Positions 4,626 to 56,349 of a stretch of 64,000 nucleotides of DNA are shown piece by piece; the first letter of the stretch is position 1, and each line of letters begins with the position of its first letter. The notes beneath the pieces were generated by a model that was not told where the DNA came from, ran no database searches, and saw only the letters and a program-made list of their open reading frames with translations. This stretch comes from Apostichopus japonicus. Lineage: Eukaryota > Echinodermata > Holothuroidea > Aspidochirotida > Stichopodidae. The translations under genes were made by a program, and so were the position numbers. The DNA is taken from assembly GCF_037975245.1 (NCBI RefSeq), contig NC_092571.1, positions 4,422,001-4,486,000 of the forward strand. The letters are read 5' to 3'.

Positions 4626-4912
4626 GTGGCATACTCCTATTAGAGTCTATATCAATCCGCTCGATTGTTCTCCTTCAGGAAAAGTGCCAAAAAGCAGCAG
4701 GAGAACATCTTTTGTGACCTGTTATCAATCATAATCTAGTTTTTTTTTTTTTGTGGCTTGCATGTTGAAGAGCATGAATGGAAGTACATGTGGTGAGAAA
4801 ATTGGGTCAATTGAGGCAATTTTAGACCCCTTTAGGCTTCCCAGGAGCAGCGTAGGAAATTTGTTTACCACTGAGTGAAGAGGTTTGTTTACAAGTGACG
4901 AAAACTTCCGAC
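4626..4912. repeat. Dispersed repeat, copy A (inverted partner 15971-16243)
   Basis: GGTGGCATACTCCTATTAGA through GTTTACAAGTGACGAAAACT is found again, reverse-complemented, at 15971-16243 with high identity over about 280 bp. Copy A is inside the palindromic element; copy B is in unrelated sequence, so this is a separate mobile repeat nested in the larger one. Confidence 0.75.
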
Positions 4913-12472: not shown

Positions 12473-12922
12473 TTCGGTGTCCACTTAACCATGAAGGGTG
12501 TTTGCGATGAGATATGCACCTCCGTCGATTGCCCTTTTACCCCATCCCTCCTACGGGAAGTAATGTGATACTGTAATCGATGTGGTTGTGTTTCGGTGTC
12601 CACTTAACCATGAAGGGTGTTTGCGATGAGATATGCACCTCCGTCAATTGCCCTTTTACCCCATCCCTCCTACGGGAAGTAATGTGATACTGTAATCGAT
12701 GTGGTTGTGTTTCGGTGTCCACTTAACCATGAAGGGTGTTTGCGATGAGATATGCACCTCCGTCGATTGCCCTTTTACCCCATCCCTCCTACGGGAAGTA
12801 ATGTGATACTGTAATCGATGTGGTTGTGTTTCGGTGTCCACTTAACCATGAAGGGTGTTTGCGATGAGATATGCACCTCCGTCGATTGCCCTTTTATCCC
12901 ATCCTTCCTTCGGGAAGTAATG
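12473..12922. repeat. 119-bp tandem repeat, array 2 (about 4 units)
   Basis: Units begin at 12489, 12608, 12727 and 12846, period 119 bp, nearly identical to each other and to array 1. They differ from array 1 mainly at one spot (CCGTCGATTGCC or CCGTCAATTGCC instead of CCGTGTATTGCC), so the two arrays were homogenised separately. Confidence 0.9.
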
Positions 12923-20551: not shown

Positions 20552-20975
20552 TATATAATATGTAGATGCGGCAATTTATCTTTATGTTATTGTTTTCCAT
20601 GGTCCTATCAACACCAACAAGTTGGAAAAGATCCTTCTTGATGAAGACCACCTAGTCCGCGAGTTTCTGGATAGAGCGATCCTCCCTAGAAGTGGTAGGA
20701 TGAGGCTGCCGTTGGCTGGAACTAACAGACACCCCTCTTCCTTCATTCCAAAATGCATGAAACGACACAACCTACTTCTTAGACGTTAATGCTTGCCCTG
20801 TTGGTATTTTCGTTATTATTTTCGTCCTCTCCTCACAGTGCAATGTATTGTTTCGGATTTTTGATCTTTCCTCCTGTTGTATATGTACACATGTTATATA
20901 TACTTCTTTTATACGAGCATTCAATTACCCTTTGTGGGGTTTAATAAAGTTTATCTTATCTTATCTTATCTTATT
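20552..20975 (+). mobile_element. 3' end of a non-LTR retrotransposon (LINE)
   Basis: Plus-strand frame 20552-20791 ends with LVREFLDRAILPRS, RMRLPLAGTNRH and SSFIP before a TAA. This is the usual C-terminal tail of jockey/CR1/L2-group LINEs (R-x-P-R-T-x-R-x-x-SF-x-P). It is followed by a 3' UTR, AATAAA (20943) and a (TTATC)n tail at 20953-20975, the microsatellite end typical of these LINEs. The copy is 5'-truncated, as most are. It ends 20 bp before the U2-headed element. Confidence 0.7.
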
Positions 20976-20995
20976 TAATTTACCACATACTTGTT

Positions 20996-21190
20996 ATCGC
21001 TTCTCGGCCTTTTGGCTAAGATCATGTGTAGTATCTGTCCCTTTCGAAGGGAATGGTGATGCACACCCGACGATGATCACACAGTCACAGTCCCGAGGCA
21101 TGCAAGGGGACTGGGTTTGAGAGCGGATCAGTCGTTTGGTTGTTTGGTTTTCGTGCCAAGGTTCTTTCGTGGGCGACTTTTTCTTAAAAA
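20996..21190 (+). mobile_element. U2 snRNA-headed retroposon, left copy
   Basis: Bases 20996-21038 match the 5' end of U2 snRNA (ATCGCTTCTCGGCC, TTTTGGCTAAGATCA, GTGTAGTATCTGT) with one change (A to T before GTGTAG), including the GUAGUA branch-site pairing segment. After that the sequence is not U2. It continues with a distinct ~150-bp body (CACACCCGACGATGATCACA, AGAGCGGATCAGTCGTT) and ends GGGCGACTTTTTCTTAAAAA. The same body follows the same head at 44179, so head plus body is one repeat family rather than a broken U2 gene. SINEs with snRNA-derived heads have been described in some animals. It lacks the Sm site and 3' stem-loops, so it is not a working U2. Confidence 0.8.
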
Positions 21191-21299
21191 GTATAACATA
21201 CTTTTTATCTTCCGCAGTGACCATAATGGACATACTTTCGATTACTCTACTCAGCCGACACAGCCTCTGTATATTTAGCGGCGAAGTCTTCCATTCGCG

Positions 21300-24200
21300 C
21301 TTAAAGGTTGCAATTCGGGAAAAATGACCGTGTTTCGTTACAGAATTAACTGATTGCGAAAGAGATCAAATTACAGGAGTTGCGAGAACAGTCTCAGATT
21401 AATCAAACTGTAAATGATGGCTAAACTAAAACGTAGACGTGTCATCTTTCATGCGTCGTTCAGTACTTGAGAAAGTTGATTTATTTTAAGTGGCGACTTT
21501 TGTAGAACACTGTTAGTTCACTCTGGATTCTTCACAATACGCATAAATCTTTCGCCTTTTACTAAAGATTTCCGTGTGAAGGATCAATATGAGATTATCT
21601 CAATTTTTCTCGCCCTCTGAAAAGGGGGAAACCATATCACACTTAAAAGAACGTAGAAAGTAGGAAAACTGGTAAAGTTGCATCCAACCTTTCGTATAGT
21701 GTTCATATTTTCCGTCATTTCCTTATTGATGATAATTACTTCTTTGCTTTTCATCGTTGATAGCATCATTGTAGCGCGGTTTTGCACATTTTACACGACT
21801 GTGCATCGTTTTTCCGGAAGTACTGTGCGCGCATTCGCGATGATCAGCGTCATGTGCTCATAAATATGTAATTATCGCAGCCAATCAGATTGTTGCAGAG
21901 TTTTTCTGCTGACAAATGTGGCTTAAATGTTGCAATTCGGGAAAATTGACCGTGTTTCGTTACAGAATTAACTGATTGCGAAAAGAGAACAAATTACAGG
22001 AGTCGCGAGAACAGTCTCAGATTAATCAAACTGTAAATGATGGCTAAACTAAAACGTAGACGTGTCACCTTTCATGCGTCGTTCAGTACTTAAGAAAGTT
22101 AATTTATTTTAAGTGGCGACTTTTGTAGAACACTGTTAGTTCACTCTGGATTCTTCACAATACGCATAAATCTTTCGCCTTTTACTAAAGATTTCCGTGT
22201 GAAGGATCAATATGAGATTATCTCAATTTTCTCGCCCTCTGAAAAGGGGGAAACCATATCACACTTAAAAGAACGTAGAAAGTAGGAAAACTGGTAAAGT
22301 TGCATCCAACCTTTCGTATAGTGTTCATATTTCCGTCATTTCCTTATTGATGATAATTACTTCTTTGCTTTTCATCGTTGATATCATCATTGTAGCTCGG
22401 TTTTGCACATTTAACACGAGTGTGCATCGATTTTCCGGAAGTACGTGTGCGCGCATTCGCGATGATCAGCGTCATGTGCTCATGAATATGTAATTATCAT
22501 ATCCAATCAGATTGTTGCAGAGTTTTTCTGCTGACAAATGTGGCTTAAATGTTGCAATTCGGGAAAATTCAGCGTGTTTCGTTACAGAATTAACTGATTG
22601 CGAAAAGGGAACAAATTACAGGAGTTGCGAGAACAGTCTCAGATTAATCAAACTGTAAATGATGGCTAAACTAAAACGTAGACGTGTCATCTTTCATGCG
22701 TCGTTCAGTACTTGAGAAAGTTAATTTATTTTTGGTGGCCACTTTTGTAGACCACTGTTACCGCACTCTGGATTCTTCACAATACGCATAAATCTTTCGC
22801 CTTTTACTAAAGATTTCCGTGTGAAGGATCAATATGAGATTATCTCAATTTTTCTCGCCCTCTGAAAAGGGGGAAACCATATCACACTTAAAAGAACGTA
22901 GAAAGTAGGAAAACTGGTAAAGTTGCATCCAAGCTTTCGTATAGTGTTCATATTTCCGTCATTTCCTTATTGATGATAATTACTTCTTTGCTTTTCATCG
23001 TTGATAGCATCATTGTAGCGCGGTTTTGCACATTTTACACGACTGTTCATCGTTTTTCCGGAAGTACTGTGCTCGCATTCGCGATGATCAGCGTCATGTG
23101 CTCATAAATATGTAATTATCATATCCAATCAGATTGTTGCAGAGTTTTTCTGCTGACAAATGTGGCTTAAATGTTGCAATTCGGGAAAATTCAGCGTGTT
23201 TCGTTACAGAATTAACTGATTGCGAAAAGGGAACAAATTACAGGAGTTGCGAGAACAGTCTCAGATTAATCAAACTGTAAATGATGGCTAAACTAAAACG
23301 TAGACGTGTCATCTTTCATGCGTCGTTCAGTACTTGAGAAAGTTAATTTATTTTTGGTGGCCACTTTTGTAGACCACTGTTAGTTCACTCTGGATTCTTC
23401 ACAATACGCATAAATCTTTCGCCTTTTACTAAAGATTTCCGTGTGAAGGATCAATATGAGATTATCTCAATTTTTCTCGCCCTCTGAAAAGGGGGAAACC
23501 ATATCACACTTAAAAGAACGTAGAAAGTAGGAAAACTGGTAAAGTTGCATCCAAGCTTTCGTATAGTGTTCATATTTCCGTCATTTCCTTATTGATGATA
23601 ATTACTTCTTTGCTTTTCATCGTTGATAGCATCATTGTAGCGCGGTTTTGCACATTTTACACGACTGTTCATCGTTTTTCCGGAAGTACTGTGCTCGCAT
23701 TCGCGATGATCAGCGTCATGTGCTCATAAATATGTAATTATCGCAGCCAATCAGATTGCTGCAGAGTTTTTCTGCTGACAAATGTGGCTTAAATGTTGCA
23801 ATTCGGGAAAATTCAGCGTGTTTCGTTACAGAATTAACTGGTTGCGAAAAGGGAACAAATTACAGGAGTCGCGAGAACAGTCTCAGATTAATCAAACTGT
23901 AAATGATGGCTAAACTAAAACGTAGACGTGTCATCTTTCATGCGTCGTTCAGTACTTGAGAAAGTTAATTTATTTTAAGTGGCCACTTTTGTAGACCACT
24001 GTTAGTTCACTCTGGATTCTTCACAATACGCATAAATCTTTCGCCTTTTACTAAAGATTTCCGTGTGAAGGATCAATATGAGATTATCTCAATTTTTCTC
24101 GCCCTCTGAAAAGGGGGAAACCATATCACACTTAAAAGAACGTAGGAAGTAGGAAAACTGTTTAAGTTGTATTCAACCTTTGGTATAGTGTTCATATTTT

Positions 24201-27200
24201 CCGTCATTTCCTTATTGATGATAATTACTTCTTTGCTTTTCATCGTTGATAACATCATTGTAGCGCGGTTTTGCACATTTTACACGACTGTGCATCGTTT
24301 TTCCGGAAGTACTGTGCTCGCATTCGCGATGATCAGCGTCATGTGCTCATAAATATGTAATTATCGCAGCCAATCAGATTGCTGCAGAGTTTTTCTGCTG
24401 ACAAATGTGGCTTAAATGTTGCAATTCGGGAAAATTCAGCGTGTTTCGTTACAGAATTAACTGGTTGCGAAAAGGGAACAAATTACAGGAGTCGCGAGAA
24501 CAGTCTCAGATTAATCAAACTGTAAATGATGGCTAAACTAAAACGTAGACGTGTCATCTTTCATGCGTCGTTCAGTACTTGAGAAAGTTTATTTATTTTA
24601 AGTGGCCACTTTTGTAGACCACTGTTAGTTCACTCTGGATTCTTCACAATACGCATAAATCCTTCGCCTTTTACTAAATATTTCCGTGTGAAGGATCAAT
24701 ATGAGATTATCTCAATTTTTCTCGCCCTCTGAAAAGGGGGAAACCATATCACACTTAAAAGAACGTAGGAAGTAGGAAAACTGTTTAAGTTGTATTCAAC
24801 CTTTGGTATAGTGATCATATTTTCCGTCATTTCCTTATTGATGATAATTACTTCTTTGCTTTTCATCGTTGATAGCATCATTGTAGCGCGGTTTTGCACA
24901 TTTTACACGACTGTGCATCGTTTTTCCGGAAGTACTGTGCTCGCATTCGCGATGATCAGCGTCATGTGCTCATAAATATGTAATTATCGCAGCCAATCAG
25001 ATTGCTGCAGAGTTTTTCTGCTGACAAATGTGGCTTAAATGTTGCAATTCGGGAAAATTCAGCGTGTTTCGTTACAGAATTAACTGGTTGCGAAAAGGGA
25101 ACAAATTACAGGAGTCGCGAGAACAGTCTCAGATTAATCAAACTGTAAATGATGGCTAAACTAAAACGTAGACGTGTCATCTTTCATGCGTCGTTCAGTA
25201 CTTGAGAAAGTTTATTTATTTTAAGTGGCCACTTTTGTAGACCACTGTTAGTTCACTCTGGATTCTTCACAATACGCATAAATCTTTCGCCTTTTACTAA
25301 AGATTTCCGTGTGAAGGATCAGTATGAGATTATCTCAATTTTTCTCGCCCTCTGAAAAGGGGGAAACCATATCACACTTAAAAGAACGTAGGAAGTAGGA
25401 AAACTGTTTAAGGGTTGTTGTTATCGCAGCCATCGTCGTTCATTGTTATCGTTGTTCGTCGTTCAGTTATCGTTGTTTACTAAAGATTTCCGTGTGAAGG
25501 ATCAATATGAGATTATCTCAATTTTTCTCGCCCTCTGAAAAGGGGGAAACCATATCACACTTAAAAGAACGTAGGAAGTAGGAAAACTGGTAAAGTTGTA
25601 TCCAAGCTTTGGTATAGTGTTCATATTTCCCGTCATTTCCTTATTGATGATAATTACTTCTTTGCTTTTCATCGTTGATATCATCATTGTAGCTCGGTTT
25701 TGCACATTTAACACGAGTGTGCATCGATTTTCCGGAAGTACGTGTGCGCGCATTCGCGATGATCAGCGTCATGTGCTCATGAATATGTAATTATCATATC
25801 CAATCAGATTGTTGCAGAGTTTTTCTGCTGACAAATGTGGCTTAAATGTTGCAATTCGGGAAAATTCAGCGTGTTTCGTTACAGAATTAACTGATTGCGA
25901 AAAGGGAACAAATTACAGGAGTTGCGAGAACAGTCTCAGATTAATCAAACTGTAAATGATGGCTAAACTAAAACGTAGACGTGTCATCTTTCATGCGTCG
26001 TTCAGTACTTGAGAAAGTTAATTTATTTTTGGTGGCCACTTTTGTAGACCACTGTTACCGCACTCTGGATTCTTCACAATACGCATAAATCTTTCGCCTT
26101 TTACTAAAGATTTCCGTGTGAAGGATCAATATGAAATAATCTCAATTTTTCTCGCCCTCTGAAAAGGGGGAAACCATATCACACTTAAAAGAACGTAGGA
26201 AGTAGGAAAACTGTTTAAGTTGTATCCAAGCTTTGGTTATAGTGTTCATATTTCCCGAAATTTCTTTATTGATGATAATTACTTCTTGCTTTTCATCGTT
26301 GATATCATCATTGTAGCTCGGTTTTGCACATTTTACACGAGTGTGCATCGTTTTTCCGGAAAAACGTGTGCGCGCATTCGCGATGATCACCGTCATGTGA
26401 AAATGAATATGTAATTATCACATCCAATCAGATTGTTGCAGAGTTTTTCTGCTGACAAATGTGGCTTAAATGTTGCAATTCGGGAAAATTCAGCGTGTTT
26501 CGTTACAGAATTAACTGGTTGCGAAAAGGGAACAAATTACAGGAGTTGCGAGAACAGTCTCAGATTAATCAAACTGTAAATGATGGCTAAACTAAAACGT
26601 AGACGTGTCACCTTTCATGCGTCGTTCAGTACTTAAGAAAGTTAATTTATTTTAAGTGGCGACTTTTGTAGAACACTGTTAGTTCACTCTGGATTCTTCA
26701 CAATACGCATAAATCTTTCGCCTTTTACTAAAGATTTCCGTGTGAAGGATCAATATGAGATTATCTCAATTTTTCTCGCCCTCTGAAAAGGGGGAAACCA
26801 TATCACACTTAAAAGAACGTAGAAAGTAGGAAAACTTGTAAAGTTGTATCCAAGCTTTGGTATAGTGTTCATATTTCCCGTCATTTCCTTATTGATGATA
26901 ATTACTTCTTTGCTTTTCATCGTTGATATCATCATTGTAGCTCGGTTTTGCACATTTAACACGAGTGTGCATCGATTTTCCGGAAGTACGTGTGCGCGCA
27001 TTCGCGATGATCAGCGTCATGTGCTCATGAATATGTAATTATCATATCCAATCAGATTGTTGCAGAGTTTTTCTGCTGACAAATGTGGCTTAAATGTTGC
27101 AATTCGGGAAAATTCAGCGTGTTTCGTTACAGAATTAACTGATTGCGAAAAGGGAACAAATTACAGGAGTCGCGAGAACAGTCTCAGATTAATCAAACTG

Positions 27201-30200
27201 TAAATGATGGCTAAACTAAAACGTAGACGTGTCATCTTTCATGCGTCGTTCAGTACTTGAGAAAGTTAATTTATTTTTGGTGGCCACTTTTGTAGATTTT
27301 ACCGCTCTGGATTCTTCACAATACGCATAAATCTTTCGCCTTTTACTAAAGATTTCCGTGTGAAGGATCAATATGAGATTATCTCAATTTTTCTCGCCCT
27401 CTGAAAAGGGGGAAACCATATCACACTTAAAAGAACGTAGAAAGTAGGAAAACTGGTAAAGTTGCATCCAAGCTTTCGTATAGTGTTCATATTTCCGTCA
27501 TTTCCTTATTGATGATAATTACTTCTTTGCTTTTCATCGTTGATAGCATCATTGTAGCGCGGTTTTGCACATTTTACACGACTGTGCATCGTTTTTCCGG
27601 AAGTACTGTGCTCGCATTCGCGATGATCAGCGTCATGTGCTCATAAATATGTAATTATCGCAGCCAATCAGATTGCTGCAGAGTTTTTCTGCTGACAAAT
27701 GTGGCTTAAATGTTGCAATTCGGGAAAATTCAGCGTGTTTCGTTACAGAATTAACTGGTTGCGAAAAGGGAACAAATTACAGGAGTCGCGAGAACAGTCT
27801 CAGATTAATCAAACTGTAAATGATGGCTAAACTAAAACGTAGACGTGTCATCTTTCATGCGTCGTTCAGTACTTGAGAAAGTTAATTTATTTTAAGTGGC
27901 CACTTTTGTAGACCACTGTTAGTTCACTCTGGATTCTTCACAATACGCATAAATCTTTCGCCTTTTACTAAAGATTTCCGTGTGAAGGATCAATATGAGA
28001 TTATCTCAATTTTTCTCGCCCTCTGAAAAGGGGGAAACCATATCACACTTAAAAGAACGTAGGAAGTAGGAAAACTGTTTAAGTTGTATTCAACCTTTGG
28101 TATAGTGTTCATATTTTCCGTCATTTCCTTATTGATGATAATTACTTCTTTGCTTTTCATCGTTGATAACATCATTGTAGCGCGGTTTTGCACATTTTAC
28201 ACGACTGTGCATCGTTTTTCCGGAAGTACTGTGCTCGCATTCGCGATGATCAGCGTCATGTGCTCATAAATATGTAATTATCGCAGCCAATCAGATTGCT
28301 GCAGAGTTTTTCTGCTGACAAATGTGGCTTAAATGTTGCAATTCAGGAAAATTCAGCGTGTTTCGTTACAGAATTAACTGGTTGCGAAAAGGGAACAAAT
28401 TACAGGAGTCGCGAGAACAGTCTCAGATTAATCAAACTGTAAATGATGGCTAAACTAAAACGTAGACGTGTCATCTTTCATGCGTCGTTCAGTACTTGAG
28501 AAAGTTTATTTATTTTAAGTGGCCACTTTTGTAGACCACTGTTAGTTCACTCTGGATTCTTCACAATACGCCTAAATCTTTCGCCTTTTACTAAAGATTT
28601 CCGTGTGAAGGATCAATATGAGATTATCTCAATTTTTCTCGCCCTCTGAAAAGGGGGAAACTATATCACACTTAAAAGAACGTAGGAAGTAGGAAAACTG
28701 TTTAAGTTGTATTCAACCTTTGGTATAGTGTTCATATTTTCCGTCATTTCCTTATTGATGATAATTACTTCTTTGCATTTCATCGTTGATAGCATCATTG
28801 TAGCTCGGTTTTGCACATTTTACACGAGTGCGCATCGTTTTTCCGGAAATACGTGTGCGCGCATTCGCGATGATCAGCGTCAAGTGCTCATAAATATGTA
28901 ATTATCGCAGCCAATCAGAATGTTGCAGAGTTTTTCTGCTGACAAATGTGGCTTAAATGTTGCAATTCGGGAAAATTGACCGTGTTTCGTTACAGAATTA
29001 ACTGATTGCGAAAAGAGAACAAATTACAGGAGTTGCGAGAACAGTCTCAGATTAATCAAACTGTAAATGATGGCTAAACTAAAACGTAGACGTGTCATCT
29101 TTCATGCGTCGTTCAGTACTTAAGAAAGTTAATTTATTTTAAGTGGCGACTTTTGTAGAACACTGTTAGTTCACTCTGGATTCTTCACAATACGCATAAA
29201 TCTTTCGCCTTTTACTAAAGATTTCCGTGTGAATGATCAATATGAGATTATCTCAATTTTTCTCGCCCTCTGAAAAGGGGGAAACCATATCACACTTAAA
29301 AGAACGTAGGAAGTAGGAAAACTGGTAAAGTTGTATCCAAGCTTTGGTATAGTGTTCATATTTCCCGTCATTTCCTTATTGATGATAATTACTTCTTTGC
29401 TTTTCATCGTTGATATCATCATTGTAGCTCGGTTTTGCACATTTAACACGAGTGTGCATCGATTTTCCGGAAGTACGTGTGCGCGCATTCGCGATGATCA
29501 GCGTCATGTGCTCATGAATATGTAATTATCATATCCAATCAGATTGTTGCAGAGTTTTTCTGCTGACAAATGTGGCTTAAATGTTGCAATTCGGGAAAAT
29601 TCAGCGTGTTTCGTTACAGAATTAACTGATTGCGAAAAGGGAACAAATTACAGGAGTTGCGAGAACAGTCTCAGATTAATCAAACTGTAAATGATGGCTA
29701 AACTAAAACGTAGACGTGTCATCTTTCATGCGTCGTTCAGTACTTGAGAAAGTTAATTTATTTTTGGTGGCCACTTTTGTAGACCACTGTTACCGCACTC
29801 TGGATTCTTCACAATACGCATAAATCTTTCGCCTTTTACTAAAGATTTCCGTGTGAAGGATCAATATGAAATAATCTCAATTTTTCTCGCCCTCTGAAAA
29901 GGGGGAAACCATATCACACTTAAAAGAACGTAGGAAGTAGGAAAACTGTTTAAGTTGTATCCAAGCTTTGGTTATAGTGTTCATATTTCCCGAAATTTCT
30001 TTATTGATGATAATTACTTCTTGCTTTTCATCGTTGATATCATCATTGTAGCTCGGTTTTGCACATTTTACACGACTGTGCATCGTTTTTCCGGAAAAAC
30101 GTGTGCGCGCATTCGCGATGATCACCGTCATGTGAAAATGAATATGTAATTATCACATCCAATCAGATTGTTGCAGAGTTTTTCTGCTGACAAATGTGGC

Positions 30201-33200
30201 TTAAATGTTGCAATTCGGGAAAATTGAGCGTGTTTCGTTACAGAATTAACTGGTTGCGAAAAGGGAACAAATTACAGGAGTTGCGAGAACAGTCTCAGAT
30301 TAATCAAACTGTAAATGATGGCTAAACTAAAACGTAGACGTGTCATCTTTCATGCGTCGTTCAGTACTTGAGAAAGTTAATTTATTTTTGGTGGCCACTT
30401 TTGTAGAACACTGTTAGTTCACTCTGGATTCTTTACAATACGCATAAATCTTTCGCCTTTTACTAAAGATTTCCGTGTGACGGATCAATATGAGACTATC
30501 TCAATTATTCCGCCCTCTGAAAAGGGGGAAGCCATATCACACTTAAAAGAATGTTGGAAGTAGGAAAACTGTTTAAGTTGTATTCAACCTTTGGTATAGT
30601 GTTCATATTTCCCGTCATTTCCTTATTGATGATAATTACTTCTTTGCTTTTCATCGTTGATAGCATCATTGTAGCTCGGTTTTGCACATTTAACACGAGT
30701 GTGCATCGATTTTAAGGAAGTACTTGTGCGCGCATTCGCGATGATCAGCGTCATGTGCTCATGAATATGTAATTATCGCAGCCAATCAGATTGTTGCAGA
30801 GTTCTTCTGCTGACAAATGTGGCTGAAAGGTTGCAATTCGGGAAAATTCAGCGTGTTTCGTTACAGACTTAACTGATTGCGAAAAGGGAACAAATTACAG
30901 GAGTTGCGAGAACAGTCTCAGATTAATCAAACTGTAAATGATGGCTAAATTGAAACGTAGACGTGTCATCTTTCATGCGTCGTTCAGTACTTGAGAAAGT
31001 TTATTTATTTTAAGTGGGGACTTTTGTAGACCACTGTTACCGCACTCTGGATTCTTTACAATACGCATAAATCTTTCGCCTTTTACTAAAGATTTCCGTG
31101 TGAAGGATCAATATGAGATTATCTCAATTTTTCTCGCCCTCTGAAAAGGGGGAAACCATATCACACTTAAAAGAACGTAGGAAGTAGGAAAACTGGTAAA
31201 GTTGTATCCAAGCTTTGGTATAGTGTTCATATTTCCCGTCATTTCTTTATTGATGATAATTACTTCTTTCTTTTCATCGTTGATATCATCATTGTAGCTC
31301 GGTTTTGCACATTTTATACGAGTGTGCATCGTTTTTCCGGAAATACGTGTGCGCGCATTCGCGATGATCAGCGTCATGTGCTCATAAATATGTAATTATC
31401 GCAGCCAATCAGATTGTTGCAGAGTTTTTCTGCTGACAAATGTGGCTTAAATGTTGCAATTCGGGAAAATTCAGCGTGTTTCGTTACAGAATTAACTGGT
31501 TGCGAAAAGAGAACAAATTACAGGAGTCGCGAGAACAGTCTCAGATTAATCAAACTGTAAATGATGGCTAAACTAAAACGTAGACGTGTCATCTTTCATG
31601 CGTCGTTCAGTACTTGAGAAAGTTTATTTATTTTAAGTGGGGACTTTTGTAGACCACTGTTAGTTCACTCTGGATTCTTCACAATACGCATAAATCTTTC
31701 GCCTTTTACTAAAGATTTCCGTGTGAAGGATCAATATGAGATTATCTCAATTTTTCTCGCCCTCTGAAAAGGGGGAAACCATATCACACTTAAAAGAACG
31801 TAGGAAGTAGGAAAACTGTTTAAGTTGTATTCAACCTTTGGTATAGTGATCATATTTTCCGTCATTTCTTAATTGATGATAATTACTTCTTTGCTTTTCA
31901 TCGTTGATAGCATCCTTGTAGCTCGGTTTTGCACATTTTACACGAGTGTGCATCGTTTTTCCGGAAAAACGTGTGCGCGCATTCGCGATGATCAGCGTCA
32001 TGTGAAAATGAATATGTAATTATCATATCCAATCAGATTGTTGCAGAGTTTTTCTGCTGACAAATGTGGCTTAAAGGTTGCAATTCGGGAAAATTGACCG
32101 TGTTTCGTTACAGAATTAACTGATTGCGAAAAGAGAACAAATTACAGGAGTTGCGAGAACAGTCTCAGATTAATCAAACTGTAAATGATGGCTAAACTAA
32201 AACGTTGACGTGTCATCTTTCATGCGTCGTTCACTACTTGAGAAAGTTGATTTATTTTTGGTGGCCACTTTTGTAGACCACTGTTACCGCACTCTGGATT
32301 CTTCACAATACGCATAAATCTTTCGCCTTTTACTAAAGATTTCCGTGTGAAGGATCAATATGAGATAATCTCAATTTTTCTCGCCCTCTGAAAAGGGGGA
32401 AACCATATCACACTTAAAAGAACGTAGGAAGTAGGAAAACTGTTTAAGTTGTATCCAAGCTTTGGTATAGTGTTCATATTTCTCGTCATTTCTTTATTGA
32501 TGATAATTACTTCTTGCTTTTCATCGTTGATATCATCATTGTAGCTCGGTTTTGCACATTTTATACGAGTGTGCATCGTTTTTCCGGAAAAACGTGTGCG
32601 CGCATTCGCGATGATCAGCGTCATGTGAAAATGAATATGTAATTATCACATCCAATCAGATTGTTGCAGAGTTTTTCTGCTGACAAATGTGGCTTAAATG
32701 TTGCAATTCGGGAAAATTCAGCGTGTTTCGTTACAGAATTAACTGGTTGCGAAAAGAGAACAAATTACAGGAGTCGCGAGAACAGTCTCAGATTAATCAA
32801 ACTGTAAATGATGGCTAAACTAAAACGTAGACGTGTCATCTTTCATGCGTCGTTCAGTACTTGAGAAAGTTGATTTATTTTAAGTGGCGACTTTTGTAGA
32901 CCACTGTTAGTTCACTCTGGATTCTTCACAATACGCATAAATCTTTCGCCTTTTACTAAAGATTTCCGTGTGAAGGATCAATATGAGATTATCTCAATTT
33001 TTCTCGCCCTCTGAAAAGGGGGAAACCATATCACACTTAAAAGAACGTAGGAAGTAGGAAAACTGTTAAAGTTGTATCCAAGCTTTGGTTATAGTGTTCA
33101 TATTTCCCGAAATTTCTTTATTGATGATAATTACTTCTTGCTTTTCATGGTTGATATCATCATTGTAGCTCGGTTTTGCACATTTTACACGAGTGTGCAT

Positions 33201-36200
33201 CGTTTTTCCGGAAAAACGTGTGCGCGCATTCGCGATGATCAGCGTCATGTGAAAATGAATATGTAATTATCACATCCAATCAGATTGTTGCAGAGTTTTT
33301 CTGCTGACAAATGTGGCTTAAATGTTGCAATTCGGGAAAATTGAGCGTGTTTCGTTACAGACTTAACTGATTGCGAAAAGGGAACAAATTACAGGAGTTG
33401 CGAGAACAGTCTCAGATTAATCAAACTGTAAATGATGGCTAAACTAAAACGTAGACGTGTCATCTTTCATGCGTCGTTCAGTACTTGAGAAAGTTTATTT
33501 ATTTTTGGTGGCCACTTTTGTAGACCACAGTTAGTTCACTCTGGATTCTTCACAATACGCATAAATCTTTCGCCTTTTACTAAAGATTTCCGTGTGAAGG
33601 ATCAATATGAGATTATCTCAATTTTTCTCGCCCTCTGAAAAGGGGGAAACCATATCACACTTAAAAGAACGTAGGAAGTAGGAAAACTGTTTAAGTTGTA
33701 TTCAACCTTTGGTATAGTGTTCATATTTTCCGTCATTTCTTAATTGATGATAATTACTTCTTTGCTTTTCATTGTTGATAGCATCATTGTAGCTCGGTTT
33801 TGCACATTTTACACGAGTGCGCATCGTTTTTCCGGAAATACGTGTGCGCGCATTCGCGATGATCAGCGTCAAGTGCTCATAAATATGTAATTATCGCAGC
33901 CAATCAGATTGTTGCAGAGTTTTTCTGCTGACAAATGTGGCTTAAATGTTGCAATTCGGGAAAATTGACCGTGTTTCGTTACAGAATTAACTGATTGCGA
34001 AAAGAGAACAAATTACAGGAGTTGCGAGAACAGTCTCAGATTAATCAAACTGTAAATGATGGCTAAACTAAAACGTAGACGTGTCATCTTTCATGCGTTG
34101 TTCAGTACTTAAGAAAGTTAATTTATTTTAAGTGGCGACTTTTGTAGAACACTGTTAGTTCACTCTGGATTCTTCACAATACGCATAAATCTTTCGCCTT
34201 TTACTAAAGATTTCCGTGTGAAGGATCAATATGAGATTATCTCAATTATTCCGCCCTCTGAAAAGGGGGAAGCCATATCACACTTAAAAGAATGTTGGAA
34301 GTAGGAAAACTGTTTAAGTTGTATCCAAGCTTTGGTATAGTGTTCATATTTCCCGTCATTTCCTTATTGATGATAATTACTTCTTTGCTTTTCATCGTTG
34401 ATAGCATCATTGTAGCTCGGTTTTGCACATTTAACACGAGTGTGCATCGATTTTAAGGAAGTACGTGTGCGCGCATTCGCGATGATCAGCGTCATGTGCT
34501 CATGAATATGTAATTATCGCAGCCAATCAGATTGTTGCAGAGTTCTTCTGCTGACAAATGTGGCTGAAAGGTTGCAATTCGGTAAAATTGACCGTGTTTC
34601 GTTACAGAATTAACTGATTGCGAAAAGGGAACAAATTACAGGAGTTGCGAGAACAGTCTCAGATTAATCAAACTGTAAATGATGGCTAAATTGAAACGTA
34701 GACGTGTCATCTTTCATGCGTCGTTCACTACTTGAGAAAGTTGATTTATTTTTGGTGGGGACTTTTGTAGACCACTGTTACCGCACTCTGGATTCTTTAC
34801 AATACGCATAAATCTTTCGCCTTTTACTAAAGATTTCCGTGTGAAGGATCAATATGAGATTATCTCAATTTTTCTCGCCCTCTGAAAAGGGGGAAACCAT
34901 ATCACACTTAAAAGAACGTAGGAAGTAGGAAAACTGGTAAAGTTGTATCCAAGCTTTGGTATAGTGTTCATATTTCCCGTCATTTCTTTATTGATGATAA
35001 TTACTTCTTTCTTTTCATCGTTGATATCATCATTGTAGCTCGGTTTTGCACATTTTATACGAGTGTGCATCGTTTTTCCGGAAATACGTGTGCGCGCATT
35101 CGCGATGATCAGCGTCATGTGCTCATAAATATGTAATTATCGCAGCCAATCAGATTGTTGCAGAGTTTTTCTGCTGACAAATGTGGCTTAAATGTTGCAA
35201 TTCGGGAAAATTCAGCGTGTTTCGTTACAGAATTAACTGGTTGCGAAAAGAGAACAAATTACAGGAGTCGCGAGAACAGTCTCAGATTAATCAAACTGTA
35301 AATGATGGCTAAACTAAAACGTAGACGTGTCATCTTTCATGCGTCGTTCAGTACTTGAGAAAGTTTATTTATTTTAAGTGGGGACTTTTGTAGACCACTG
35401 TTAGTTCACTCTGGATTCTTCACAATACGCAAAAATCTTTCGCCTTTTACTAAAGATTTCCGTGTGAAGGATCAATATGAGATTATCTCAATTTTTCTCG
35501 CCCTCTGAAAAGGGGGAAACCATATCACACTTAAAAGAACGTAGGAAGTAGGAAAACTGTTTAAGTTGTATTCAACCTTTGGTATAGTGATCATATTTTC
35601 CGTCATTTCTTAATTGATGATAATTACTTCTTTGCTTTTCATCGTTGATATCATCATTGTAGCTCGGTTTTGCACATTTTACACGAGTGCGCATCGTTTT
35701 TCCGGAAAAACGTGTGCGCGCATTCGCGATGATCAGCGTCATGTGCTCATGAATATGTAAATATCATATCCAATCAGATTGTTGCAGAGTTTTTCTGCTG
35801 ACAAATGTGGCTTAAAGGTTGCAATTCGGGAAAATTGACCGTGTTTCGTTACAGAATTAACTGATTGCGAAAAGAAAACAAATTACAGGAGTTGCGAGAA
35901 CAGTCTCAGATTAATCAAACTGTAAATGATGGCTAAACTAAAACGTTGACGTGTCATCTTTCATGCGTCGTTCACTACTTGAGAAAGTTGATTTATTTTT
36001 GGTGGCCACTTTTGTAGACCACTGTTACCGCACTCTGGATTCTTCACAATACGCATAAATCTTTCGCCTTTTACTAAAGATTTCCGTGTGAAGGATCAAT
36101 ATGAGATAATCTCAATTTTTCTCGCCCTCTGAAAAGGGGGAAACCATATCACACTTAAAAGAACGTAGGAAGTAGGAAAACTGTTTAAGTTGTATCCAAG

Positions 36201-39200
36201 CTTTGGTATAGTGTTCATATTTCTCGTCATTTCTTTATTGATGATAATTACTTCTTGCTTTTCATCGTTGATATCATCATTGTAGCTCGGTTTTGCACAT
36301 TTTATACGAGTGTGCATCGTTTTTCCGGAAAAACGTGTGCGCGCATTCGCGATGATCAGCGTCATGTGAAAATGAATATGTAATTATCACATCCAATCAG
36401 ATTGTTGCAGAGTTTTTCTGCTGACAAATGTGGCTTAAATGTTGCAATTCGGGAAAATTGAGCGTGTTTCGTTACAGAATTAACTGGTTGCGAAAAGAGA
36501 ACAAATTACAGGAGTCGCGAGAACAGTCTCAGATTAATCAAACTGTAAATGATGGCTAAACTAAAACGTAGACGTGTCATCTTTCATGCGTCGTTCAGTA
36601 CTTGAGAAAGTTGATTTATTTTAAGTGGCGACTTTTGTAGACCACTGTTAGTTCACTCTGGATTCTTCACAATACGCATAAATCTTTCGTCTTTTACTAA
36701 AGATTTCCGTGTGAAGGATCAATATGAGATTATCTCAGTTTTTCTCGCCCTCTGAAAAGGGGGAAACCATATCACACTTAAAAGAACGTAGGAAGTAGGA
36801 AAACTGTTAAAGTTGTATCCAAGCTTTGGTTATAGTGTTCATATTTCCCGAAATTTCTTTATTGATGATAATTACTTCTTGCTTTTCATCGTTGATATCA
36901 TCATTGTAGCTCGGTTTTGCACATTTTACACGAGTGTGCATCGTTTTTCCGGAAATACGTGTGCGCGCATTCGCGATGATCAGCGTCATATGCTCATGAA
37001 TATGTAATTATCATATCCAATCAGATTGTTGCAGAGTTTTTCTGCTGACAAATGTGGCTTAAAGGTTGCAATTCGGGAAAATTCAGCGTGTTTCGTTACA
37101 GAATTAACTGATTGCGAAAAGAGAACAAATTACAGGAGTCGCGAGAACAGTCTCAGATTAATCAAACTGTAAATGATGGCTAAACTGAAACGTTGACGTG
37201 TCATCTTTCATGCGTCGTTCAGTACTTGAGAAAGTTTATTTATTTTTGGTGGCCACTTTTGTAGAACACTGTTAGTTCACTCTGGATTCTTCACAATACG
37301 CATAAATCTTTCGCCTTTTACTAAAGATTTCCGTGTGAAGGAAGAATATAAGATTATCTCAATTTTTCTCGCCCTCTGAAAAGGGGGAAACCATATCACA
37401 CTTAAAAGAACGTAGGAAGTAGGAAAACTGTTTAAGTTGTATCCAAGCTTTGGTATAGTGTTCATATTTCCCGTCATTTCTTTATTGATGATAATTACTT
37501 CTTGCTTTTCATCGTTGATATCATCATTGTAGCTCGGTTTTGCACATTTTATACGAGTGTGCATCGTTTTTCCGGAAATACTTGTGCGCGCATTCGCGAT
37601 GATCAGCGTCATGTGCTCATAAATATGTAATTATCGCAGCCAATCAGATTGTTGCAGAGTTTTTCTGCTGACAAATGTGGCTTAAATGTTGCAATTCGGG
37701 AAAATTGAGCGTGTTTCGTTACAGAATTAACTGGTTGCGAAAAGAGAACAAATTACAGGAGTCGCGAGAACAGTCTCAGATTAATCAAACTGTAAATGAT
37801 GGCTAAACTAAAACGTAGACGTGTCATCTTTCATGCGTCGTTCAGTACTTGAGAAAGTTTATTTATTTTTGGTGGCCACTTTTGTAGAACACTGTTAGTT
37901 CACTCTGGATTCTTCACAATACGCATAAATCTTTCGCCTTTTACTAAAGATTTCCGTGTGAAGGATCAATATGAGATTATCTCAATTTTTCTCGCCCTCT
38001 GAAAAGGGGGAAACCATATCACACTTAAAAGAACGTAGGAAGTAGGAAAACTGTTTAAGTTGTATTCAACCTTTGGTATAGTGATCATATTTTCCGACAT
38101 TTCTTAATTGATGATAATTACTTCTTTGCTTTTCATCGTTGATATCATCATTGTAGCTCGGTTTTGCACATTTTACACGAGTGCGCATCGTTTTTCCGGA
38201 AATACGTGTGCGCGCATTCGCGATGATCAGCGTCATATGCTCATGAATATGTAATTATCATATCCAATCAGATTGTTGCAGAGTTTTTCTGCTGACAAAT
38301 GTGGCTTAAAGGTTGCAATTCGGGAAAATTCAGCGTGTTTCGTTACAGAATTAACTGATTGCGAAAAGAGAACAAAATTACAGGAGTTGCGAGAACAGTC
38401 TCAGATTAATCAAACTGTAAATGATGGCTAAACTAAAACGTTGACGTGTCATCTTTCATGCGTCGTTCACTACTTGAGAAAGTTAATTTATTTTTGGTGG
38501 CCACTTTTGTAGACCACTGTTACCGCACTCTGGATTCTTCACAATACGCATAAATCTTTCGCCTTTTACTAAAGATTTCCGTGTGAAGGATCAATATGAG
38601 ATAATCTCAATTTTTCTCGCCCTCTGAAAAGGGGGAAACCATATCACACTTAAAAGAACGTAGGAAGTAGGGAAACTGGTAAAGTTGTATCCAAGCTTTG
38701 GTATAGTGTTCATATTTCCCGTCATTTCTTTATTGATGATAATTACTTCTTGCTTTTCATCGTTGATATCATCATTGTAGCTCGGTTTTGCACATTTTAT
38801 ACGAGTGTGCATCGTTTTTCCGGAAATACTTGTGCGCGCATTCGCGATGATCAGCGTCATGTGCTCATAAATATGTAATTATCGCAGCCAATCAGATTGT
38901 TGCAGAGTTTTTCTGCTGACAAATGTGGCTTAAATGTTGCAATTCGGGAAAATTCAGCGTGTTTCGTTACAGAATTAACTGGTTGCGAAAAGAGAACAAA
39001 TTACAGGAGTCGCGAGAACAGTCTCAGATTAATCAAACTGTAAATGATGGCTAAACTAAAACGTAGACGTGTCATCTTTCATGCGTCGTTCAGTACTTGA
39101 GAAAGTTGATTTATTTTAAGTGGGGACTTTTGTAGACCCCATTATTTCACTCTGGATTCTTCACAATACGCATAAATCTTTCGCCTTTTACTAAAGATTT

Positions 39201-42200
39201 CCGTGTGAAGGATCAATATGAGATTATCTCAATTTTTCTCGCCCTCTGAAAAGGGGGAAACCATATCACACTTAAAAGAACGCAGGAAGTAGGAAAACTG
39301 TTTAAGTTGTATTCAACCTTTGGTATAGTGATCATATTTTCCGACATTTCTTAATTGATGATAATTACTTCTTTGCTTTTCATCGTTGATAGCATCATTG
39401 TAGCTCGGTTTTGCACATTTTACACGAGTGCGCATCGTTCTTCCGGAAATACGTGTGCGCGCATTCGCGATGATCAGCGTCATATGCTCATGAATATGTA
39501 ATTATCATATCCAATCAGATTGTTGCAGAGTTTTTCTGCTGACAAATGTGGCTTAAAGGTTGCAATTCGGGTAAATTGACCGTGTTTCGTTACAGAATTA
39601 ACTGATTTCGAAAAGTGAACAAATTACAGGAGTCGCGAGAACAGTCTCAGATTAATCAAACTGTAAATGATGGCAAAACTGAAACGTAGACGTGTCATCT
39701 TTCATGCGTCGTTCAGTACTTGAGAAAGTTGATTTATTTTTTTGTGGCCACTTTTGTAGACCACTGTTACCGCACTCTGGATTCTTCACAATACGCATAA
39801 GTCTTTCGCCTTTTACTAAAGATTTCCGTGTGAAGGATCAATATGAGATTATCTCAATTTTTTCGCCCTCTGAAAAGGGGGAAACCATATCACACTTAGA
39901 AGAACGTAGGAAGTAGGAAAACTGTTTAAGTTGTATCCAAGCTTTGGTATAGTGTTCATATTTCCCGTCATTTCTTTATTGATGATAATTACTTCTTGCT
40001 TTTCATCGTTGATATCATCATTGTAGCTCGGTTTTGCACATTTTATACGAGTGTGCATCGTTTTTCCGGAAAAACGTGTGCGCGCATTCGCGATGATCAG
40101 CGTCATGTGAAAATGAATATGTAATTATCACATCCAATCAGATTGTTGCAGAGTTTTTCAGCTGACAAATGTGGCTGAATGGCTGCAATTCGGGTAAATT
40201 GACCGTGTTTCGTTACAGAATTAACTGATTTCGAAAAGTGAACAAATTACAGGAGTCGCGAGAACAGTCTCAGATTAATCAAACTGTAAATGATGGCAAA
40301 ACTGAAACGTAGACGTGTCATCTTTCATGCGTCGTTCAGTACTTGAGAAAGTTTATTTATTTTTTTGTGGCCACTTTTGTAGACCACTGTTACCGCACTC
40401 TGGATTCTTCACAATACGCATAAATCTTTCGCCTTTTACTAAAGATTTCCGTGTGAAGGATCAATATGAGATTATCTCAATTTTTTCGCCCTCTGAAAAG
40501 GGGGAAACCATATCACACTTAGAAGAACGTAGGAAGTATGAAAACTGTTTAAGTTGTATCCAAGCTTTGGTATAGTGTTCATATTTCCCGTCATTTCTTT
40601 ATTGATGATAATTACTTCTTTGCTTTTCATCGTTTATATCATCATTGAAGCTCGGTTTTGCACATTTTACACGAGTGTGCATCGTTTTTCCGGAAATACG
40701 TGTGCGCGCATTCGCGATGATCAGCGTCATGTGAAAATGAATATGTTATTAACACAGCCAATCAGATTGCTGCAGAGTCTTTCTGCTGACAAATGTGGCT
40801 TAAAGGTTGCAATTCGGGAAAATTGACCGTGTTTCGTTACAGAATTAACTGATTTCGAAAAGAGAACAAATTACAGGAGTTGCGAGAACAGTCTCAAATT
40901 AATCAAACTGTAAATGATGGCTAAACTAAAACGTAGACGTGTCATCTTTCATGCGTCGTTCAGTACTTGAGAAAGTTGATTTATTTTTTTGTGGCCACTT
41001 TTGTAGACCACTGTTACCGCACTCTGGATTCTTCACAATACGCATAAATCTTTCGCCTTTTACTAAAGATTTCCGTGTGAAGGATCAATATGAGATTATC
41101 TCAATTTTTTCGCCCTCTGAAAAGGGGGAAACCATATCACACTTAGAAGAACGTAGGAAGTAGGAAAACTGTTTAAGTTGTATCCAAGCTTTGGTATAGT
41201 GTTCATATTTCCCGTCATTTCTTTATTGATGATAATTACTTCTTTGCTTTTCATCGTTTATATCATCATTGAAGCTCGGTTTTGCACATTTTACACGAGT
41301 GTGCATCGTTTTTCCGGAAATACGTGTGCGCGCATTCGCGATGATCAGCGTCATGTGAAAATGAATATGTTATTAACACAGCCAATCAGATTGCTGCAGA
41401 GTCTTTCTGCTGACAAATGTGGCTTAAAGGTTGCAATTCGGGAAAATTGACCGTGTTTCGTTACAGAATTAACTGATTTCGAAAAGAGAACAAATTACAG
41501 GAGTTGCGAGAACAGTCTCAAATTAATCAAACTGTAAATGATGGCTAAACTAAAACGTAGACGTGTCATCTTTCATGCGTCGTTCAGTACTTGAGAAAGT
41601 TGATTTATTTTTAGTGGTCACTTTTGTAGACCACTATTACCGCACTCTGGATTCTTCACAATACGCATAAATCTTTCGCCTTTTACTAAAGATTTCCGTG
41701 TGAAGGATCAATATGAGATTATCTCAATTTTTCTCGCCCTTTGAAAAGGGGGAAACCATATCACACTTAAAAGAACGTAGGAAGTAGGACAACTGTTAAA
41801 ATTGTATCCAACCTTTGGTATAGTGTTCATATTTCCCGTCATTTCTTTATTGATGATAATTACTTCTTGCTTTTCATCGTTTATATCATCATTGTAGCTC
41901 GGTTTTGCACATTTCATACGAGTGTGCATCGTTTTTCCGGAAATACGTGTGCGCGCATTTGCGATGATCAGCGTCATGTGAAAATGAATATGTAATTATC
42001 ACAGCCAATCAGATTGTTGCAGTGTTTTTCTGCTGACAAATGTGGCTTAAAGGTTGCAATTCGGGAAAATTGAGCGTGTTTCGTTACAGAATTAACTGAT
42101 TTCGAAAAGAGAACAAATTACAGGAGTTGCGAGAACAGTCTCAAATTAATCAAACTGTAAATGATGGCTAAACAAAAACGTAGACGTGTCATCTTTCATG

Positions 42201-44178
42201 CGTCGTTCAGTACTTGAGAAAGTTGATTTATTTTTTTGTGGCCACTTTTGTAGACCACTGTTACCGCACTCTGGATTCTTCACAATACGCATAAATTTTT
42301 CGCCTTTTACTAAAGATTTCCGTGTGAAGGATCAATATGAGATTATCTCAATTTTTCTCGCCCTCTGAAAAGGGGAAACCATATCACACTTAAAAGAACG
42401 TAGGAAGTACGAAAACTGTTTAAGTTGTATCCAAGCTTTGGTATAGTGTTCATATTTCCCGTCATTTCTTTATTGATGATAATTACTTCTTGCTTTTCAT
42501 CGTTGATATCATCATTGTAGCTCGGTTTTGCACATTTTATACGAGTGTGCATCGTTTTTCCGGAAAAACGTGTGCGCGCATTCGCGATGATCAGCGTCAT
42601 GTGAAAATGAATATGTTATTAACACAGCCAATCAGATTGCTGCAGAGTCTTTCTGCTGACAAATGTGGCTTAAAGGTTGCAATTCGGGAAAATTGACCGT
42701 GTTTCGTTACAGAATTAACTGATTTCGAAAAGAGAACAAATTACAGGAGTTGCGAGAACAGTCTCAAATTAATCAAACTGTAAATGATGGCTAAACAAAA
42801 ACGTAGACGTGTCATCTTTCATGCGTCGTTCAGTACTTGAGAAAGTTGATTTATTTTTTTGTGGCCACTTTTGTAGACCACTGTTACCGCACTCTGGATT
42901 CTTCACAATACGCATAAATTTTTCGCCTTTTACTAAAGATTTCCGTGTGAAGGATCAATATGAGATTATCTCAATTTTTCTCGCCCTCTGAAAAGGGGAA
43001 ACCATATCACACTTAAAAGAACGTAGGAAGTACGAAAACTGTTTAAGTTGTATCCAAGCTTTGGTATAGTGTTCATATTTCCCGTCATTTCTTTATTGAT
43101 GATAATTACTTCTTTCTTTTCATCGTTGATATCATCATTGTAGCTCGGTTTTGCACATTTTATACGAGTGTGCATCGTTTTTCCGGAAAAACGTGTGCGC
43201 GCATTCGCGATGATCAGCGTCATTATGCTCATGAATATGTAATTATCACAGCCAATCAGATTGTTGCAGTGTTTTTCTGCTGACAAATGTGGCTTAAAGG
43301 TTGCAATTCGGGTAAATTGACCGTGTTTCGTTACAGAATTAACTGATTTCGAAAAGTGAACAAATTACAGGAGTCGCGAGAACAGTCTCAGATTAATCAA
43401 ACTGTAAATGATGGCAAAACTGAAACGTAGACGTGTCATCTTTCATGCGTCGTTCAGTACTTGAGAAAGTTGATTTATTTTTTTGTGGCCACTTTTGTAG
43501 ACCACTGTTACCGCACTCTGGATTCTTCACAATACGCATAAATCTTTCGCCTTTTACTAAAGATTTCCGTGTGAAGGATCAATATGAGATTATCTCAATT
43601 TTTTCGCCCTCTGAAAAGGGGGAAACCATATCACACTTAAAAGAACGTAGGAAGTAGGAAAACTGTTTAAGTTGTATCCAAGCTTTGGTATAGTGTTCAT
43701 ATTTCCCGTCATTTCTTTATTGATGATAATTACTTCTTGCTTTTCATCGTTGATATCATCATTGTAGCTCGGTTTTGCACATTTTATACGAGTGTGCATC
43801 GTTTTTCCGGAAAAACGTGTGCGCGCATTCGCGATGATCAGCGTCATGTGAAAATGAATATGTTATTAACACAGCCAATCAGATTGCTGCAGAGTCTTTC
43901 TGCTGACAAATGTGGCTTAAAGGTTGCAATTCGGGAAAATTGACCGTGTTTCGTTACAGAATTAACTGGTTGCGAAAAGAGAACAAATTACAGGAGTTGC
44001 GAGAACAGTCTCAGATTAATCAAACTGTAAATGATGGCTAAACTAAAACGTAGACGTGTCATCTTTCATGCGTCGTTCAGTACTTGAGAAAGTTTATTCC
44101 TTTTTAGTGGCGACTTTTGTAGACCACTGTTAGCGTACGCCGGATTCTTCACAATACGCATAAATCTTTCGCCTTTTA
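21300..44178. repeat. Satellite-like tandem array of a ~623-bp monomer (~36 copies)
   Basis: The landmark GTGAAGGATCAATATGAG recurs at 21581, 22204, 22826, 23448, 24070, 24693, 25316 and onward to 43576 at steps of 618-625 bp, all in one orientation. One short interval (25316 to 25499, 183 bp) marks a truncated unit. Monomers differ by a few percent and by single-base indels. The array starts in mid-monomer at about 21300 (TTAAAGGTTGCAATTCGGG) and is interrupted at 44178 by a U2-headed element. Unusual copies recur every six units: 30482 and 34223 share TCAATTATTCCGCC, 32352 and 36093 share GAGATAATCTC, with spacing 3741 bp. Each monomer has open frames of 60-90 codons on the minus strand, but their length changes with 1-bp indels (CTTCTTTGC, CTTCTTGC, CTTCTTTC), so coding is not supported. 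Confidence 0.95.
25316..25499. repeat. Truncated monomer with scrambled insert
   Basis: Here a monomer breaks after GGAAAACTGTTTAAG and resumes at TTTACTAAAGATTTCC. The ~70 bases between (GTTGTTGTTATCGCAGCC through TTCAGTTATCGTTG) include TTATCGCAGCCA and CGTCGTTCAGT. Both are words from distant parts of the normal monomer, stitched with GTTATCGTT-type filler. It looks like an end-joining or template-switch scar. Confidence 0.8.
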
Positions 44179-44372
44179 CTTCTCGGCCTTTTCGGCTCTT
44201 TGGCTAAGTTCATGTGTAGTATCTTTTCCTTTCGAGGGGAATGGTAATTCACACCCGACGATGATCACACAGTCACAGTCCTGATGCAAGGGGACCGTGG
44301 TTCAGAGCGGATCAGTCGTTCAGTAGTTTGGTTTTCGTGCCCAGGTTCCTTCCTGGGTGACTTTTCCTTAAA
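44179..44372 (+). mobile_element. U2 snRNA-headed retroposon, right copy inserted in a monomer
   Basis: The monomer runs normally to CGCCTTTTACT, then CTTCTCGGCC...GGCTAAGTTCATGTGTAGTATCT begins. It has an internal TTCGGCTC duplication and lacks the first four U2 bases. The body and the end (GGGTGACTTTTCCTTAAAAAA) match the left copy. Monomer sequence resumes at ACTAAAGATTTCC, exactly where it stopped, with ACT on both sides. This is the structure of an insertion into an existing monomer with a short target duplication and A-rich tail. Confidence 0.8.
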
Positions 44373-44665
44373 AAAACTAAAGATTTCCGTGTAAAGGATC
44401 AATATGAGATTTTCTCAATTTTTCTCGCCCTCTGAAAAGAGGGAAAGCATATCACACTTAAAAGAACGTAGGAAATAGGAACACTGTTTAAGTTGGATCC
44501 AACCTTTGGTGTAGATTTCAAATTGGGAATGGGGTTGAGAGCGGATGAGTCGTTCGGTAGTTTGGGGGGGTTTTTTTTCGCACAGGTTCTTTCCTGGGCG
44601 ACTTTTTCTCAAATAGTACTAAAGATTTCCGTGTGTACGATCAATATGAGATCATCTCAATTTTA
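44373..44665. repeat. Array edge: monomer pieces and a 3' half of the U2-headed element
   Basis: 44373-44518 is a diverged partial monomer. 44521-44622 is the 3' half of the U2-headed element again (GGGTTGAGAGCGGAT, GGGCGACTTTTTCTC). 44623-44665 is again ACTAAAGATTTCCGTGTG plus a little monomer. The junction of element end and ACTAAAG is repeated, so element plus flanking monomer was duplicated together after insertion. Unique sequence begins after about 44665. Confidence 0.75.
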
Positions 44666-55871: not shown

Positions 55872-56349
55872 ATGGAAGTTTTGTCTGCTTTATCTTATTC
55901 TTTCATGTTCCTTATCACGTTATCACTTTCTGAGGACATAGAGTGTGATTATCACTGTCAAGATGGACCAACAGTAAATTCAACAGACTGTCATGTGGTT
56001 GTAGGTTGTGACTTATCGTTTCCAAATATTTCATTTTCATATGCATCTATATTTGTACTTAGATTAGATTTGAACTTCACCGAACTGGCTACTGATGATG
56101 CTGATCATCAAACTCCCTTTCTTTACTCTGGTACGTTCCGGTGGTACGAGGATCATACTTATGATCGTTATCTATTCCAAGTTGAATACCTGCTCAGGAA
56201 TTCATCGGGGGAGTTTTATGTATTTTCGTTCCTAATCCGAGACATTCAACCAGGAGATGCTGGAACTTATCACGTCAACTTAACGGAGATAGACTATTAC
56301 GACGGGACCGACGGTCCGATTCTCTTACAACACACATACCGTATATTTG
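55872..56349 (+). CDS. Ig-like secreted or receptor protein, first exon (V-like domain 1)
   Basis: The ATG opens 159 codons plus one base, ending at TTTG/GTAAGT. Residues 1-20 are a signal peptide (FMFLITLSLS). Residues 25-46 carry four Cys in C-x3-C-x10-C-x5-C spacing, the last within VVVGCDLSF like an Ig B strand. Residues 129-134 read DAGTYH, the F-strand D-x-G-x-Y motif of V-type Ig domains, but His stands where Cys is expected. There are several N-glycosylation sites (NISF, NFTE, NSSG, NLTE). It is the paralogue of the exon at 57353. No second Ig exon follows before 57353, so the donor (phase 1) may use the in-phase acceptor at 57879. Immune or adhesion receptor role is inference. Confidence 0.72.

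Follow-up and report, generated by a model that had tools for sequence, protein, structure and literature searches.

In this work we have analysed a 64,000-nucleotide stretch of the genome of the sea cucumber Apostichopus japonicus (contig NC_092571.1, here C11:4422001-4486000; the window in what follows), in which copies of a retroposon headed by U2 small nuclear RNA (snRNA) lie beside and within a tandem array, and have followed this element through the assembly of 671,581,487 bases in 35 contigs to which all genome-wide counts refer. Our results indicate that the elements are U2-headed short interspersed nuclear elements (SINEs), and that their sources are most likely SINE bodies lodged in tandem U2 genes between nucleotides (nt) 38 and 39 and mobilised by a long interspersed nuclear element (LINE) of the Keno type.

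The existence of a U2-headed retroposon family, proposed in a first-pass annotation of the window, is strongly supported. Its consensus of about 195 nt starts with U2 nt 1-45, which agree with host U2 at every position, and continues with a body, which carries a 3' hairpin, and the end AAAAAGTA. Head/body junctions occur at 896 places in the genome (up to 3 mismatches in 44 nt) and tails at 2066 (up to 3 mismatches in 32 nt), with a reversed-pattern control of 0 in each case; the element is not low-copy, as had been supposed. The best 40 candidates and their neighbours gave 45 rows spread over 18 contigs, and at 30 loci picked by the tail alone 24 of 49 SINE pieces begin in the first 8 nt of the consensus. 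Two to four copies stand in a row at several loci. Tails also recur with a 171-bp period at C3:3634958-3635672 (5 exact places), and 8 exact head junctions lie about 3 kb apart at C5:11042398-11066015; both series appear to be SINE copies amplified within tandem repeats.

Target-site duplications of at least 6 nt flank 37 of 72 distinct insertions; when flanks are mismatched, they occur in 91 of 1421 pairs. The family thus combines an snRNA-derived 5' head with retroposition marked by such duplications, two features of SINEU, which is a Repbase class of snRNA-headed SINEs (PMC5753468) and is known from crocodilians (PMC8010984). SINEU heads derive from U1 or U2, here from U2, and on its snRNA head and its mode of dispersal we regard the family as SINEU-like. 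The crocodilian elements are reportedly linked to a LINE of the Tx1 clade. The present family differs in its echinoderm host, and probably also in that SINE-bearing U2 genes lend their own 5' part as the head and in the presence of LINEs at the same nucleotide. No paper treating sea cucumber, SINE and U2 snRNA together was found in a literature search whose coverage leaves out most subscription journals.

The flanks of the insertions point to U2 itself. The AGTA end is followed by YC in 34 of 65 distinct 3' flanks, compared with 10.1% of nearby sequence (p 2e-17), and by YCT in 22 of the 65, while A immediately precedes the duplication in 26 of the 31 insertions with an exact 8-nt duplication. 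Outside U2, insertions hence favour A|YCT, which forms the core of the U2 site AGTA|TCTG. That is the site at which Keno and Utopia LINEs are described as inserting, with the downstream U2 beginning at nt 39 (PMC4640811). Since both the preference and the AGTA end match the core of this site, SINEs were expected at U2 nt 39 and were then searched for there. The junction, set beforehand, was found at 28 places (control 0) with a pattern joining the SINE end to U2 nt 39-63, which more divergent ends would escape; 27 lie on C16, in a U2 array (30.999-31.163 Mb), and the remaining one is on C20. Seven of the 28 have SINE-type ends (6 exact, 1 with one mismatch) and 21 have others, namely 10 AAGAAAAGTA, 4 AAAGAAAGTA and 7 TTAAAAGAAA. 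We read out every one of the 7 places with a SINE-type end, together with 3 of the remaining 21; the former are all SINEs in U2, one of them decayed.

The clearest case is a locus (L082) with three U2 genes that carry a SINE body between nt 38 and 39. Each consists of U2 1-45 (twice) or 1-53, the body, TTAAAAAGTA, and then U2 to nt 193 at 100%, so that the 5' part of the host gene itself serves as the SINE head, and the U2 segment that occurs twice, nt 39-45 or 39-53, represents the target-site duplication. A second locus (L086) has the same layout with one changed head base, and a third (L087) holds two SINE pieces in tandem inside one U2. The five SINE-bearing genes compared (three in L082, and those of L086 and L087) all match an intact U2 gene exactly over the 150 nt upstream. 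In another gene (L088) a LINE end, TCTGTTCTTTTCAGC, a 5'-truncated SINE and U2 follow one another within a single U2, and the C20 locus (L089) is a decayed U2 (90%) holding an older SINE (88%), which we interpret as a fossil of the same arrangement. One resident is very close to copies elsewhere: among the best 40 scored places, it matches C2:21947645-21947835 at 100% over 191 nt and 37 other copies outside the U2 array at 99%. In a FastTree tree of 69 SINE bodies, whose topology was read without support values, the residents of L086, L087 and position 1599 of L082 group with recent copies whose hairpin is short, and the window copies and the C20 fossil fall elsewhere, in the long-hairpin part; the long branch of the L082 resident at 818 reflects the U2 letters at the start of its row, and this copy is therefore uninformative.

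The same U2 nucleotide is used by LINEs. One of the other junctions (L083) belongs to a LINE of about 5.3 kb, preceded by U2 1-50 and followed by U2 from nt 39. Its ORF1 (505 aa) bears a zinc knuckle, and its ORF2 (1173 aa) an APE endonuclease (Exo_endo_phos, 3.5e-19), a reverse transcriptase (RT; RVT_1, 3.6e-38) and zf-RVT. The closest match of this LINE among solved proteins is L1 ORF2 (6e-82), with R2 at 3e-20. Its APE endonuclease, L1-group RT and downstream U2 from nt 39 fit Keno, not Utopia, by the descriptions in PMC4640811. Utopia, an RLE-type LINE that the same paper reports from U2 genes of sea urchins and a starfish, resembles the present system in using the same U2 nucleotide, in tandem insertions and in a weakened specificity with U2-like junction words; it has a restriction-like endonuclease, which sets it apart from L083 with its APE-type enzyme. 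The other two LINEs read (L084 and L085) are known from their 3' ends alone. Across the C16 array, U2 nt 39 is joined to non-SINE 3' ends of at least 3 kinds, and many of these ends are 5.6-6.0 kb apart, as if several LINE families shared one U2 array. The SINE is distinct from Keno, and has next to nothing in common with the LINE tails that were read.

Promoters of snRNA genes lie outside the transcribed part, so a SINE headed by an snRNA has no evident means of starting its own transcription. We propose, as the likeliest reading, that the source genes are SINE bodies in tandem U2 genes whose upstream region is left intact; transcripts would begin at U2 +1, and the first 45 nt of the host gene would thereby become the SINE head. 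The endonuclease and reverse transcriptase would come from a Keno-type LINE that inserts at this same position in U2. The RNA may read on into U2 nt 39-41 (UCU), where a nicked target could pair with it, and such priming would yield both the A|YCT sites and the AGTA end (U2 35-38). In U2 genes the SINE would re-home precisely; elsewhere weaker A|YCT sites would be used, producing copies that lack a U2 promoter and are presumably inert. The full account, in which the SINE is a guest of U2 genes, taking promoter and head from a chimeric gene, re-homing by Keno-type machinery and owing the A|YCT sites of its inert copies to UCU read-through, has in our judgement an even chance of being correct.

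Several observations weigh against this account. The resident copies may be targets rather than sources, and half of the 72 insertions lack a duplication of at least 6 nt by the flank test. In the window, YC is missing after the end of the left copy, and the place in U5 that the right copy entered matches A|YCT only partly. SINEs and LINEs share the U2 target, and what is common to their tails is limited to the last nucleotides: of the 3 of 21 LINE tails read, that of L083 has its last 7 nt in common with the SINE, and the other two have short chance words. No LINE with the SINE tail appeared in the 30 tail-chosen loci, whose upstream frames were not searched individually. A pattern joining the other type of U2 upstream region, that of C15, to the SINE gave 0 matches; at one C15 U2 gene (L003) a SINE lies about 1.2 kb away.

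Turning to the window, the supposed 623-bp satellite proved to be an array of U5 snRNA genes. Rfam finds 36 full-length U5 genes at 21518-43623, at 77-90 bits against a cut-off of 40 and with one above-cut-off gene in each of 36 head-to-tail units of about 623 bp, which rules out an anonymous satellite, that is, a tandem repeat without genes. Genome-wide, 43 U5 genes exceed the cut-off, a lower bound from 47 scored candidates, and 36 of these are in this array. The units have a mean pairwise identity of 95.3%, with the loop I word exact in 34 of 36, and the best partner of a unit is often six units away (4/10, 5/11, 15/21, 16/22, 17/23, 18/24), which would be a sign of block duplication within the array. 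Tandem snRNA gene arrays are ordinary in kind, and a U2 array of 645-bp units exists on C16; the 36 head-to-tail U5 genes of the window differ in their interruptions by SINEs and by a 63-bp filler in unit 7. This filler has one match in the genome, namely itself, and 37 of its 63 nt are covered by array words of at least 9 nt, a coverage equalled by 1 of 500 shuffles, for which reasons it looks like templated break repair; a transposon tail is ruled out here on the same grounds.

Table. Features of the U5 array and of the SINE copies in the window.
Feature	Position	Strand	Basis
U5 snRNA gene array, unit ~623 bp, 36 full-length genes	21299..44133	+	Rfam; unit BLAST
U5 gene 5' part, interrupted gene, unit positions 8-46	44142..44180	+	unit BLAST
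U5 gene 3' part + spacer, interrupted gene, unit positions 44-192	44376..44524	+	unit BLAST
Final array piece, unit positions 43-90	44617..44664	+	unit BLAST
63-bp filler in unit 7	25413..25475	.	unit position 160 before, U5 from unit position 41 after
Left SINE copy: U2 head, body, 3' hairpin, end AAAAAGTA	20996..21193	+	95% to consensus
Left-copy target-site duplication, 5' side, ACATACTTGTT	20985..20995	.	flank comparison
Left-copy target-site duplication, 3' side, ACATACTTTTT, one mismatch	21196..21206	.	flank comparison
Right SINE copy, within presumed U5 loop I of last U5 gene	44181..44374	+	91% to consensus
Third SINE piece, consensus nt 109-195, 83%	44525..44618	+	joined to U5 at right copy's nucleotide

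The window copies were first described as carrying the same 43-base head, with one mismatch on the left and the branch-site pairing segment intact. Both do have a U2-like head and a common non-U2 body; the left head is identical to the U2 of this genome over nt 1-43 (43/43), and it is the right one that departs, its first ~5 nt being absent and an insertion of ~8 nt being present. The left copy exceeds the Rfam U2 cut-off (51.6 bits vs 46). Directly 5' of it, at 20938-20980, stands a (TTATC)n tail after AATAAAG that resembles the 3' end of another LINE. The right copy interrupts the last U5 gene (...CGCCTTTTACT, element, ACTAAAGATTTCC...) at what we take to be loop I. The two copies share 86% identity over 191 columns. 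Their divergence from the consensus differs (95% vs 91%), from which we conclude that they are separate insertions: one would have landed outside the array and the other in loop I. The further 3' half announced on the right is present (79% to the left copy over 94 columns). Either the 3' half of the right copy would have been duplicated locally, in tandem and together with unit positions 44-192, or a second insertion would have taken place; the one derived base in common does not decide between the two.

How do other explanations fare? The SINEs resident in U2 could be targets only, with transcription driven by an internal RNA polymerase III (Pol III) promoter at dispersed copies and the RNA homing through the specificity of the LINE. 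Most described SINEs carry such promoters in their heads, according to PMC7245038, and homing of any SINE RNA would likewise create resident copies; in our consensus, however, the first 45 nt are those of host U2, three oligo-T runs (nt 15, 150 and 180) would be apt to terminate Pol III transcription, and the best A- and B-box matches are equalled by 97.7% and 95% of 1000 shuffles, respectively, in a test that is weak for divergent promoters. We consider this explanation unlikely, and favour the residents as sources transcribed from the U2 promoter, because one of them is identical or nearly so to dispersed copies, three stand among the recent copies in the tree, and the element has no recognisable Pol III boxes.

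For the window itself, the earlier reading was that the element brackets the array, either through expansion of the array between two insertions or as a mark of repaired breaks. In favour of this, 23.7 kb hold two copies, of which the right one lies in the last unit, and from the 2066 tails 0.073 copies would be expected in 23.67 kb (P(>=2) 0.0025); from the density in SINE flanks, a sample biased upwards with 6 separate pieces in 157,550 bp (~25,000 copies), 0.88 would be expected (P 0.22). As the window was singled out for its two copies, neither value is a clean test. The position at both edges survives for the right copy; the left one lies outside, about 105 bp of non-array sequence short of 21299, where similarity to the array begins. 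Expansion between two insertions is not supported, given the left copy's place in non-array DNA with a duplication of its own and the separate origin of the two copies, in a family with at least 896 headed members. As for repaired breaks, one point is in favour, since the break-like filler ends at the U5 position of the right copy; it contains no SINE, however, and the idea as a whole is not supported. We saw no sign of, and no mechanism for, the element bounding, shaping or expanding the U5 array, and the bracketing reading now seems to us very improbable. Somewhat less so, though still improbable, is that loop I is itself a specific retroposon target or a break hot spot, as might be suggested by the junctions of the right SINE, the third piece and the filler, all of which fall at unit positions 41-44: the third piece may merely duplicate the right one, and the U5 3' half (up to 3 mismatches) occurs at 43 places genome-wide, 39 in the window array, 3 on C13 and 1 at C11:16128542, with no dispersed or LINE-linked halves found among them. 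Of four other U5 loci read, only that on C13 has SINEs, two antisense copies in the spacers of two units of a small U5 cluster (C13:20876501-20885000, L049), one with an empty-site counterpart in a third unit; they sit in spacers rather than in loop I, and a mild SINE excess near U5 genes is possible on their account. A literature search on U5-targeted retrotransposons, with the same limited coverage, returned nothing useful.

Other features of the window were recorded in passing. A broken Tx1-like LINE remnant occupies 60680-63535 (-), with endonuclease and RT pieces in separate frames; its RT shares 46% identity over 211 aa with that of L083. It was rejected as partner of the SINE, since a BLAST search of the window with the left SINE gave there only a 19-nt match (58809-58827, E 0.12). 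A Type I hammerhead ribozyme at 796-837 (-), scoring 36.5 bits against a cut-off of 34, lies upstream of the first of two blocks of 119-bp tandem repeats (1971-2318 and 12473-12922), and AT-rich tandem repeats with 20- and 41-bp units and ATTTAAATCGA palindromes form several blocks at 3325-5725 and 9112-9514. A pair of open frames at 55863-58219 (+), 168 and 297 aa long and similar to each other, have FxF-type, secreted-looking starts and common C-rich words; neither gave a Pfam match.

What do these elements mean for the genome that carries them? Since the left SINE passes the Rfam U2 cut-off, such copies can be miscounted as U2 genes by annotators. If PMC10344927 describes the same assembly, its table gives a SINE content of 159,644 bp and a count of 996 for splicing snRNAs identified by Rfam, and the 896 SINE copies, if full-length, would alone amount to about 175 kb. 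U2-seated copies with an unchanged upstream region, at a nucleotide that LINEs also use, lead to a testable model with a host promoter, a host head and the machinery of a LINE. If true, this model would explain the birth and the upkeep of promoterless snRNA-headed SINEs.

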